DNA of 64,000 bases from Candidatus Roizmanbacteria bacterium (GTDB lineage: Bacteria; Patescibacteriota; Microgenomatia; UBA1406; GWC2-37-13), in contig JACRJL010000001.1 in NCBI GenBank assembly GCA_016215445.1, positions 124,001 to 188,000 of the forward strand. The letters are read 5' to 3'. Below are positions 5,230 to 7,863 of this stretch, piece after piece. A model generated the notes under the pieces. The model was given only the letters and a program-made list of their open reading frames with translations. It was not told where the DNA came from and searched no databases. Positions within the stretch are counted from its first letter, which is position 1; each line of letters begins with the position of its first letter. A program made the translations under genes and the position numbers.

Positions 5230-5347
5230 AAGTTTATATCCTATAATATTATAACAATAATTATTTTTATTTCAACTTTTTCTTTCCCTCTAATCACCAA
5301 TTTTGATGAGTATAGGGAAAGAGATAGGGGGGATGTTTGAGACTTGG
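5230..5347. other. Intergenic stretch with one imperfect hairpin
   Basis: An inverted repeat CTTTCCCT / AGGGAAAG (about 5281-5322) encloses a shorter pairing ATCACC / GATGAG. There is no U-run in the expected place on either strand, so it is not a clear intrinsic terminator. It lies between the left end of the GC-rich island and the start of the GT2 gene. Confidence 0.4.
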
Positions 5348-5455
5348 TTAATTCAGCGGAGAGCTGAAGGTGCTGAAAAGCAACCAAATCCAAAACACTT
5401 GGAATACCCACACTATCTCTGGAGGTCCGCGATACATTTCAAGTATCGTATTCAT
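5348..5455 (-). CDS. Small hydrophobic protein, 35 residues
   Basis: A minus-strand mini-ORF begins at ATG 5455-5453 and ends at TAA 5350-5348. It has a strong Shine-Dalgarno (GGAGG, 8 bases before the ATG). It encodes MNTILEMYRGPPEIVWVFQ followed by an aromatic hydrophobic stretch rich in F, W and L that could span or lie in a membrane. It follows the lipoprotein gene by 29 bases in the same direction, so it would be the last cistron of the island unit. I recognise no family. The good ribosome-binding site is the main support; a chance ORF cannot be excluded. Confidence 0.4.
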   Translation of the reverse strand: MNTILEMYRGPPEIVWVFQVFWIWLLFSTFSSPLN

Positions 5456-5484
5456 GAGAATATCCTCCATTAGGGTTCAGGCAT

Positions 5485-6039
5485 CTAGTGCACTGCGGTG
5501 GCCCAAAACTTGCCGTTGCACCCAGTCCAGGTGTCATCGCTCCGAGCAGGAACATTCGGATCAAAGACATTCTGAATCCAGATGCGACCCGGTCCGGTGG
5601 GCAGATGATCAAAGACCATCGAAACGTCAGTCGGGGCGTCAACAGTTGTGGCATCAGAGCACCACACATACCAGGCTTGGTATGAATCGAGAGTCAGTTC
5701 TGACCCTTCGAAAACTGTTGCATTGGCGTTTGCGGCCATCTGTTGGGTGGAGACAACACAAGCTTCCATCTCTGCTTGAGTGACATTAAAGTCAGCCTCA
5801 GCGGTGCGTAAGCAGAGTGCCAACAGTTCGGATTGACCAGCAACGAGCGGATCGGAATTGCTTTCATCGTAGTTCAACGATGTGCTGGCGGGCGCGGCGG
5901 GCGGCTGGGTGGGCATGGGGGCCGAGACGGTCGGGATGACCGGGGCCAGAGGGGCGTTACGCGGAGTAACACTGCAGGCCAGGGAGGCGAGCAGAAGCGC
6001 GATTAGCCCGAGGGCGATGGTAAAACGGGTTTTGTTCAT
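5485..6039 (-). CDS. Small secreted lipoprotein in GC-rich island
   Basis: From the ATG at 6039 the product has 184 residues. This start is preceded by AGGAGAAAGAG, a strong ribosome-binding site; an upstream in-frame extension to 6165 overlaps the neighbouring gene and has no such site. The N-terminus (MNKTRFTIALGLIALLLA then SLAC) is a lipoprotein signal with Cys near residue 22. A Pro/Ala/Thr-rich linker follows, then a domain with four cysteines (LALCLRTAE, MEACVV, WYVWCSD, WTGCNG) that could form two disulfides. I recognise no named family. Style and base use recall Chloroflexi-type lipoproteins and differ from the AT-rich neighbours, suggesting transfer or a foreign segment. Confidence 0.65.
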   Translation of the reverse strand: MNKTRFTIALGLIALLLASLACSVTPRNAPLAPVIPTVSAPMPTQPPAAPASTSLNYDESNSDPLVAGQSELLALCLRTAEADFNVTQAEMEACVVSTQQMAANANATVFEGSELTLDSYQAWYVWCSDATTVDAPTDVSMVFDHLPTGPGRIWIQNVFDPNVPARSDDTWTGCNGKFWATAVH

Positions 6040-6280: not shown

Positions 6281-6344
6281 GATCTTTGTACTCCTTGTAC
6301 ATTTTGGTGGTTTGATTTTCATTTCTCCTGGTCTACGATGACCT

Positions 6345-6923
6345 TAACCCAAAGGGGGGGCGTAGGATACGCCTTATGAAATCCATCTCCTTTATGGACT
6401 CGTTCTAAGGACGAAATAATTCATCCGTAAAGTGAGTCCATCTACAAGTTTATTTTTTTAAATAAACCGTAGAAGGGAGATTGGTTTTCAGGTCGTGTTC
6501 AATTGAGCCATGTTTTGCCCATAAATTGCCCTTAAGCCCATAAATATAAATAACCTGATGCCGACTAAGTCGGCAATAGACACGCTTAAACCTTTCCAGG
6601 CTCAAGCTATTTGAGCCCTTCCGGACTTTTAAGATGTCTATACCCATTTTGTAAATGTGCGAAGAGAAGTTTTGCTTTGCTTTGTAGCAAGCTTCTTCTC
6701 GACACTTTTGTCCTCTCCCCATTTTCTAAAACCCATGGGGGCGGGGACTAGTTTAATGTCCCGCCACTAGGCGGGACGCTAGTCCCCGCCTGGGACGAAA
6801 CAGTTTGCTTGGGCAAAAAAAATGCCCAAGAATTAGAGAGCCACTTAGTGGCTCCCAGATTCCTGGGTATTTAAGATATAATACTCTCTCCTTGGTTGTA
6901 TGTTTCGTCCCTTAAACATATGC
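6345..6923 (-). ncRNA. Candidate large structured noncoding RNA (about 580 nt)
   Basis: Read on the minus strand downstream of a strong promoter, this stretch holds a dense set of perfect or near-perfect stems. They are GGGACGAAACA pairing with TGTTTCGTCCC as a closing stem; GAGCCACTAAGTGGCTC; TTGGGCA/TGCCCAA; GGCGGGGACTAG/CTAGTCCCCGCC enclosing GTCCCGCC/GGCGGGAC; CCCCAT/ATGGGG; GAGAAG/CTTCTC with GCTTGCT/AGCAAAGC; ATAGACA/TGTCTAT enclosing CTTAAA/TTTAAG and GGCTCAA/TTGAGCC; GCCGAC/GTCGGC; CAGGT/ACCTG; GTTTATTT/AAATAAAC; ATGGACTC/GAGTCCAT enclosing GGATGAA/TTCGTCC; and GGCGTA/TACGCC. This is far more than a random leader would show. I could not match it to RNase P RNA, tmRNA, SRP RNA or 6S RNA. 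It could be a giant 5' leader of the membrane protein-lipoprotein unit or a separate RNA. Confidence 0.6.
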
Positions 6924-6928
6924 CCTAT

Positions 6929-6957
6929 AGTATAGCAAATGAACAGTCAAAAGTCAA
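6929..6957 (-). promoter_or_regulatory. Strong sigma70-type promoter for the structured RNA
   Basis: On the minus strand TTGACT (6957-6952), exactly 17 bases, then TATACT (6934-6929). The predicted RNA start is near 6922, just before GGGCATATG and the first stem of the structured RNA. A second TTGACT lies seven bases closer to the -10 box, in a spacing that does not fit. Confidence 0.75.
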
Positions 6958-7173: not shown

Positions 7174-7827
7174 TTAAGAGCTTTTCTTAAGTTTAAGGCC
7201 GATTCCGGCGCCTAAAATATTGCCGGCCAATAAGAGTAGGCCGAATTCCGGTCCGGCAGAAGGAACAGTTTTACCAGGAGTGACCTGTTTTTCAATACAA
7301 AGCTGTGATGTATCGTCGTCATAGGCATTGCTTGAGTTGGCTTTGACAAAGTTGCTGACACAGAAAAGACCCTTATCAGCAGGCAAATTAGTTTGGGCTA
7401 ATACCTTCATTTTGAGATAAAAGACCTTTTCCTGGTCGACTTCAAAGTCTCCAGCATTCCAGGTGATTTCTCTAGTGGTTGAGTTAAAGCTTCCAGGTCC
7501 CTCCATCGGATCTAAATAAGAGGGAACAGTGTCTTTGACTTCCATTCCGACCAATTTTGTGGTTGAAGTGTTTTTTACCTTTATTTTAAAGAATACGACC
7601 TGGTCCGGTTTGAAACGGGGGTCAGAAACAGAAAGATTATCAACATATTCATAAACCGTGGCATCGTTTGATGTTCCAGGTTTTCCAACCATTTTATCAA
7701 CGACAATAGCATATGAAGGGCAAGGTTGTCCGTACTGACCATACTGGCCGACACAATCGGCAGAAACAGAAGGAACAAAAATCAATAATGAAAAAACAGT
7801 AGCGAGAAAAACAAATATTTTTTTCAT
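7174..7827 (-). CDS. DUF11-type surface protein with C-terminal anchor
   Basis: From ATG 7827 the product has 217 residues. It has a signal peptide (MKKIFVFLATVFSLLIF, cleavage near VSA-D), a Gly/Gln/Tyr stretch, then one beta domain of DUF11 character: KIKVKNTSTTKLVGMEV and KDTVPSYLDPMEG, with two cysteines late in the domain. The C-terminus is PSAGPEFG, a hydrophobic helix and KLKKSS, the usual sorting or anchor tail of CPR surface proteins. A perfect promoter (TTGACA, 17 bases, TATAAT) places the transcript start at or one base from this ATG. This rejects the longer upstream start and makes the mRNA leaderless. The ligand or role is unknown. Confidence 0.75.
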   Translation of the reverse strand: MKKIFVFLATVFSLLIFVPSVSADCVGQYGQYGQPCPSYAIVVDKMVGKPGTSNDATVYEYVDNLSVSDPRFKPDQVVFFKIKVKNTSTTKLVGMEVKDTVPSYLDPMEGPGSFNSTTREITWNAGDFEVDQEKVFYLKMKVLAQTNLPADKGLFCVSNFVKANSSNAYDDDTSQLCIEKQVTPGKTVPSAGPEFGLLLLAGNILGAGIGLKLKKSS

Positions 7828-7834
7828 AGTTGGT

Positions 7835-7863
7835 ATTATACTATAAGATTGTAACGTTGTCAA
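7835..7863 (-). promoter_or_regulatory. Perfect consensus promoter of a leaderless gene
   Basis: TTGACA (7863-7858), 17 bases, TATAAT (7840-7835) on the minus strand. The expected start point is at about 7828, one base before the ATG of the DUF11 protein. Confidence 0.85.

Follow-up and report, generated by a model that had tools for sequence, protein, structure and literature searches.

A stretch of about 570 nt on the minus strand of a Candidatus Roizmanbacteria genome is a new, large, conserved structured RNA. In our reading, which we hold with moderate confidence, it is a structured leader that resembles those of ribosomal RNA (rrn) operons, is controlled by Nus factors and precedes an operon for one or more small membrane proteins and a secreted or lipoprotein-like protein. 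The RNA lies in a window of 64,000 nt (C2:124001-188000), the whole stretch of DNA that was analysed, in a 940-kb genome of three contigs. Roizmanbacteria are tiny, probably symbiotic bacteria. They belong to the Patescibacteria, a group that is thought to live on other cells and most of whose genes have no known function. Few large structured RNAs are known from bacteria; the present one is a further class with covariation support, linked both to the Nus/boxA system familiar from rRNA and to exchangeable secreted proteins that could act at host contact. As far as the literature was searched it is previously undescribed, and its function is one that we infer.

Table 1. Features of the RNA locus, in window coordinates.
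Feature	Position	Strand	Basis
Gene for a DUF11-domain protein; separate from the RNA, syntenic anchor upstream of it	7174..7863	-	homologue comparison
sigma-70-type promoter TTGACT-17-TATACT	6929..6957	-	hexamer match; -10 and following CATATG kept in homologues
5' structured RNA domain, ~570 nt	6359..6925	-	z -12, sliding z, homologues
Possible 24-codon leader ORF, from a few nt past the presumed start site to a stop in the T1 apex	6845..6919	-	suggestive only
P1 (long-range closing stem), 5' strand GGGACGAAACA	6901..6911	-	fold; invariant, without covariation
P1 (long-range closing stem), 3' strand TGTTTCGTCCC	6792..6802	-	near-invariant
T1, two-part hairpin then U8 tract	6815..6867	-	covariation; T-run in homologues
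P3 hairpin CTTGGG/CCCAAG	6808..6830	-	alignment; shares CTTGGG with T1
P4/P5 GC-rich double hairpin; covariance model R1 was built on it and P3	6740..6790	-	compensatory changes
boxA (GCACATTTACAA, AAT, GGGT)	6642..6660	-	16/16 homologues; motif shared with rrn leaders
P6 helix, covarying top hairpin 6598-6618	6576..6641	-	P6 top covariation
P7 hairpin GCCGAC/GTCGGC	6560..6574	-	42/42 cells paired, 5 two-sided positions
P10, last large hairpin ahead of the Shine-Dalgarno	6395..6440	-	70/74 cells paired, 9 two-sided positions
ORF A, small protein, one membrane segment, SD CCAGGAGAA	6050..6322	-	no family match
ORF B, 184-aa secreted/lipoprotein-like protein	5485..6039	-	GC3; homologous in L021, L076, L087
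3' structured RNA domain	5282..5481	-	z -6.3 at +1500; covarying outer stem
ORF C, 35 codons, SD, overlaps 3' RNA domain; coding status uncertain	5348..5455	-	ORF scan
CTATACTCAT, complementary to ATGGGTATAG just after boxA (6638-6647)	5306..5315	-	pairing search

Promoter and Folding of the 5' RNA

The promoter consists of TTGACT (6957-6952), a 17-nt spacer and TATACT (6934-6929). It matches the consensus at 10 of 12 positions, with a TG before the second hexamer, which bears out the strong minus-strand promoter proposed in an earlier, sequence-only reading of this DNA. Transcription is predicted to start near 6925-6922 (GGGC). The minus strand of 6320-6930 (611 nt) folded at -240.5 kcal/mol, compared to a mean of -164.5 (sd 6.3) for dinucleotide shuffles (z = -12.0). 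In a sliding scan in which 150 nt were folded at a time, z was about 0 just before the start site, -5.5 and below from +0, between -3 and -8 over +0 to about +570, and about 0 again at the first ORF and across the ORFs, with a second structured block at +1500. The 3' boundary of the 5' RNA falls near 6359, and its minimum-energy fold contains more than ten hairpins, including GGGACGAAACA (6911-6901) with TGTTTCGTCCC (6802-6792); the earlier claim of about 580 nt of densely folded RNA with more than ten stems thus held up. Folding z values were -6.7 to -19.2 in twelve members of the family of RNAs, window included, while six window stretches of 600 nt taken as controls lay between -3.1 and +0.8. 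A protein-coding reading of the 90-codon ORF at 6450-6722 was rejected. Six homologues were checked, and in each the frame is interrupted no more than 19 codons past the boxA-proximal ATG; the region is therefore non-coding.

Compensatory base changes in homologues, the test that the sequence-only reading had named, were found in T1, P5, the top of P6, P7, P10 and the outer stem of the 3' domain, and not in P1. Because the helices for the strand-by-strand counts were picked by hand in the sequences, their permutation figures should be read as indicative only. The base of T1 was paired in 94 of 95 cells, with six two-sided positions, and its top in 74 of 87, with nine; P5 was paired in 81/87 cells (5 two-sided positions). 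For P6 the evidence is the top hairpin only, P6 itself being left out (43/48 cells paired, two-sided change at 8 positions). P7 occurs in six distinct versions in relatives, every one perfectly paired. Alignment A1 held 12 cells with two-sided change, compared to 5.6 in shuffles and 0-5 in slid versions. P8 (TCAGGT/ACCTGA) had no two-sided change among homologues, and this helix is not claimed. P1 was paired in 131 of 138 cells (95%) among 13 relatives, equal to the permutation mean, with no two-sided changes; because both strands hardly vary, P1 is neither backed nor refuted by covariation. The long-range closing stem of the earlier reading is therefore present in the fold but has no covariation support, its strands being near-invariant in the 13 relatives, and P1 was dropped as proof of structure, conservation of both strands being uninformative.

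Comparison with Known RNA Families

Scanned against Rfam 15 at gathering score, the window gave three tRNAs only, and 19 homologous loci (101,644 bases) gave tRNAs only. Neither set held a match at this score to an ordinary RNA such as RNase P RNA, which the sequence-only reading had weighed, or to OLE, ROOL or GOLLD; the latter three had no match in the window stretch even at E<10. That reading had left a choice between a diverged member of these families, which is not upheld, and a new large RNA class, which agrees with the conserved structure, the compensatory changes and the lack of an Rfam relative at gathering score. The best sub-threshold match was whalefall-1 at 6710-6779 on the minus strand (26.1 bits vs. 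a gathering score of 37). This identity was rejected, as the match lies below the gathering score and the similarity rests on one GC-rich hairpin. Among open-licence PMC papers, we found no earlier report of the RNA and no large structured RNA reported for Patescibacteria (Candidate Phyla Radiation).

By description, OLE RNA is alike in its length of about 600 nt, its ornate structure and its place beside small membrane proteins; it differs in lineage and gave no match in the Rfam scan, and the Roizmanbacteria RNA has a boxA and a 3' domain. ROOL and GOLLD are likewise large and ornate, with variable insert regions. They are found in phages and prophages, frequently close to tRNA islands (PMC12286853), whereas the Roizmanbacteria RNA, besides having no Rfam match to them, is chromosomal and syntenic, with one core motif that has no viral-contig match.

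Distribution and Synteny

Relatives were found by blastn in 20 of 144 related genomes, several as short matches of which the weakest are probably chance, and the downstream flanks of the DUF11 anchor added the diverged members L076, L081, L084 and L087. Covariance model R1 (the P3-P4-P5 module) matched 13 of 72 genomes of the family and none outside it among 373 genomes drawn from the class. Over 84,980 genomes, the RNA-core pattern matched 13 stretches, ten of them from Candidatus Roizmanbacteria or Microgenomates. The other three came from an unclassified bacterium (its contig shared with a genome of the same genus, G005), the Microgenomates group and an Acidobacteriaceae contig, the last taken to be a chance match.

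Homologues are present in some genomes of one Candidatus Roizmanbacteria family and occupy the same position behind the DUF11 gene. The RNA is single-copy, and the same DUF11 gene stands upstream in every homologue with a known left flank. This gene is single-copy in 88 of the 144 related genomes and seems to encode an old conserved surface protein of the class. In three loci of the same genus (L070, L073, L075), DUF11 is present but no RNA follows it. The RNA is thus lineage-restricted, single-copy and syntenic, yet patchy. The "foreign-looking island" of the earlier reading did not survive this comparison: the RNA part looks native, single-copy and syntenic behind DUF11, and only the downstream ORFs are GC-rich. 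A phage or plasmid origin was rejected, since relatives sought on phages, plasmids and viral contigs gave no matches; in viral contigs the RNA-core search covered one core motif. Unrelated Thr/Pro-rich lipoproteins were observed downstream of DUF11 in L070 and L073, without the RNA, and in L081, ahead of it.

T1 and the Leader ORF

T1 looks like an intrinsic terminator or attenuator inside the leader. A run of at least six T occurs at +84 to +118 in about 10 of 16 homologues; a terminator scan of the window gave a signal not above shuffles. Of 22 loci, 18 have an ATG 7-15 nt past the -10, and roughly half of these 18 have the stop within the T1 apex, which suggests translation-dependent attenuation at T1. 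P3 and T1 are mutually exclusive in the window because CTTGGG is common to both. An alternative is a purely regulatory leader, in which attenuation at T1 through leader-ORF translation, a ligand or a protein sets surface-protein expression and boxA is incidental; the terminator form of T1, its covariation, the strand it shares with P3 and the closely placed ATG with its stop speak for such a leader. We nevertheless consider this unlikely, as the leader peptide is conserved only as MFKGR, the terminator scan did not exceed shuffles, some 450 nt of structure past T1 exceed what an attenuator needs, and boxA and the 3' domain are left unexplained.

boxA and Nus Factors

The sequence GC[AT]C[ACT]TT[TAG]A[ACT][AT][AT], followed by 3 nt and GGGT, lies between P5 and P6 in all 16 complete homologues. 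It occurred in none of 200 shuffles of each homologue, although the pattern was composed after the sequences had been seen and only L178 is a prospective match. That locus (genome G066), found via secreted-protein homology only, carries GCTCTTTAACAAAATGGGTTTAGG about 1 kb upstream of the secreted-protein gene. The window version, GCACATTTACAA, is among the most diverged. The 16S leader of the same genome carries GCTCTTTGAAAA 102 nt before the 16S start, and rrn leaders of the family carry GC(A/T)CTTT(G/A)A(A/C/T)AA at -63 to -133 in 10 of 11 examined, own genome included. The motif is the boxA of the E. coli and Bacillus rrn operons (TGCTCTTTAACAA and TGTTCTTTGAAAAC). The RNA leader thus carries a boxA like that of the organism's rrn leader, as a leader for NusB/S10 antitermination would, and NusB is encoded in the genome (81.5 bits). 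A search of the genome for the exact boxA consensus gave a single match, within a P-type ATPase gene, which was discarded as chance.

Like an rRNA operon leader, the 5' RNA has a strong promoter, a boxA sequence equal to that of the organism's own rrn leader and, beside boxA, a strand for which RNA downstream of the cargo is a probable pairing partner in several lineages. It differs in that the cargo is protein-coding, the 5' domain is far larger and folded, and a terminator-like hairpin stands before boxA. boxA also occurs upstream of non-rRNA genes and regulates a few protein genes (PMC5725501). The boxA mRNA leaders of suhB and C. koseri CKO_00699 likewise place boxA ahead of protein-coding genes, but they are described as 5' UTR boxA sites (PMC5725501), whereas the Roizmanbacteria RNA is a large conserved structure with a 3' partner domain. 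Processive antitermination RNAs (lambda nut/N, LoaP targets) share the principle of an RNA element and Nus-type factors acting on polymerase, a likeness by description rather than sequence comparison; unlike them, the Roizmanbacteria RNA has no dedicated protein partner identified.

Downstream Genes and the 3' Domain

The first genes after the RNA have strong Shine-Dalgarno sites and encode small membrane proteins. They are followed by the gene of a secreted-type protein, which has a Thr/Pro-rich linker and, at its N terminus, a membrane segment or lipobox. Domain and family searches with these downstream proteins yielded no match above the cut-off. ORF B has a GC3 of 0.62, compared to 0.364 ± 0.050 (maximum 0.453) for 48 other ORFs of the window. 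The C-terminal domain of the secreted protein is homologous in the window, L021, L076 and L087, with unrelated domains elsewhere. Eight genomes of the family encode this protein. In at least six it stands in RNA context or, in G066, behind a boxA leader; of the others, G006 has its copy on another contig and G026 lacks the RNA. Judged from these sequences, the RNA is kept and its cargo exchanged, and the site behind DUF11 is a hot spot for surface-protein exchange. As a separate observation, the first ORF beside the RNA in L022 (2887-3147) and L024 encodes a small protein with a zinc ribbon and a membrane segment (CPHC..H....CLEC).

The 3' domain of the window, which is absent from the sequence-only reading, has an outer stem GAGATAG/CTATCTC (5413-5419 with 5321-5327) and then a second hairpin closed by TTTCCC/GGGAAA. 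A second structured block was also seen at +1725 in L021 and L024, and a long hairpin follows the secreted-protein ORF in 7/7 loci examined. The sequence of its outer stem differs and always pairs. The seven versions include GAGATAG/CTATCTC, GACATAG/CTATGTC, AGACATGA/TCATGTCT, AAGATATG/CATATCTT and AGAAAGCTTGG/CCAAGCTTTCT, often trailed by a second stem with the closure TTTCC/GGAAA. The order RNA, ORFs, 3' domain is constant.

This arrangement bears on whether the 5' RNA could be a stand-alone non-coding RNA that forms its own particle, as OLE does, with the small membrane proteins as partners and boxA serving only to get untranslated RNA transcribed. Its size, helix density and strong promoter would suit such an RNA, as would the adjoining small membrane proteins and the fact that the RNA is better conserved than the ORFs. 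We regard this as rather unlikely: the small membrane proteins do not form a single family, homologues whose contig continues have equally oriented ORFs behind the RNA, a second structured domain lies past these ORFs, and no terminator-like site was found in the window between the RNA and the first SD-bearing ORF. Since no terminator was found before the ORFs and boxA is present, the 5' RNA is probably not stand-alone.

To look for pairing between the two domains, the 20 nt that follow boxA were compared, in 12 loci, with the 420 nt downstream of the secreted-protein ORF. Pairs from one and the same locus averaged -15.2 kcal/mol and mismatched pairs -12.8 (permutation p = 0.0002). The pairing is strong in L030 and L032 (AAAAAGGGTAAGG with CCTTACCCTTTTT, 13 bp), L076 (TTGGGTTTAGGT with ACCTAAACCCAA, 12 bp) and L033 (CAGGGTTCAGG with CCTGAAACCCTG, 12 bp, one bulge). 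It is weaker in L087 and in the window and L024 (ATGGGTATAG with CTATACTCAT, 10 bp, one G-U), the window version being weak alone and overlapping a P6 strand, and it was not found in L021, L022, L027 and L028. Pairing of the boxA strand with the 3' domain is thus probable in some lineages and not proven for the window. In rrn operons, own boxA contexts did not pair better with their own 16S 3' flanks than with flanks of other genomes (10.8 vs. 9.7 bp), so the analogy to a processing stem rests on published rrn work.

Two RNA domains flanking exchangeable GC-rich ORFs, with long-range complementarity in several lineages and genes inserted between RNA modules in L028, L030 and L033, might also be expected of one large ORF-containing RNA element, intron-like or a domesticated mobile element, in which both domains fold as one and the genes are carried along as cargo. 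We consider this very improbable, as there is one copy per genome at one syntenic place, the element lacks reverse transcriptase, endonuclease and transposase, and no Rfam intron family matched.

Proposed Mechanism

Under the preferred reading, a Nus-controlled leader of the secreted-protein operon, the strong promoter would start the leader, and the early hairpin T1 could stop transcription, a possible decision point ahead of boxA. As boxA lies downstream of T1 in the leader, it cannot be the suppressor of T1. boxA would recruit NusB/NusE(S10) to the elongating polymerase, which could then escape termination by Rho over about 340 nt of folded RNA that is not translated. The Nus complex would hold the boxA-proximal strand until it pairs with the 3' domain, which is transcribed later than the ORFs; the coding part would then lie in a closed loop, whose two ends may be processed or protected. 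In this scheme we infer a single transcription unit, the binding of Nus factors, antitermination, processing and a regulatory role of T1. This reading predicts that NusB/S10 binds the mRNA and that transcripts are protected or processed at two places. The surface operon may thereby be expressed with ribosomal-RNA-type machinery. A bolder version, to which we give tentative and limited credence, is that Roizmanbacteria turned the whole rRNA transcription and maturation system (boxA, Nus factors, leader-trailer stem) to a surface operon, with the entire 1.6-3 kb transcript as one folded ribonucleoprotein and exchangeable secreted-protein genes looped between two conserved RNA domains.

Additional Elements in Diverged Loci

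After the 3' domain, L030 and L032 carry a boxA-like TTTTGCACTTTGAAAATTGGG at +2715 and +2535 from the promoter, respectively. Past it lies more folded RNA with the shared motif CCGCCTG..CTTACCG.TC.CCTT, which may be a further RNA module. In L028, L030, L033 and L084, antisense genes lie as insertions between the P1 strands, directly after a second boxA-like sequence (GCACTTTAATAATCAGGG and variants); they encode KDDL-repeat proteins or a small membrane protein. L028 also has a second P3-P4-P5 copy (G067:C53:9838-9922) about 1 kb downstream of the first, which scored 47 bits with R1.
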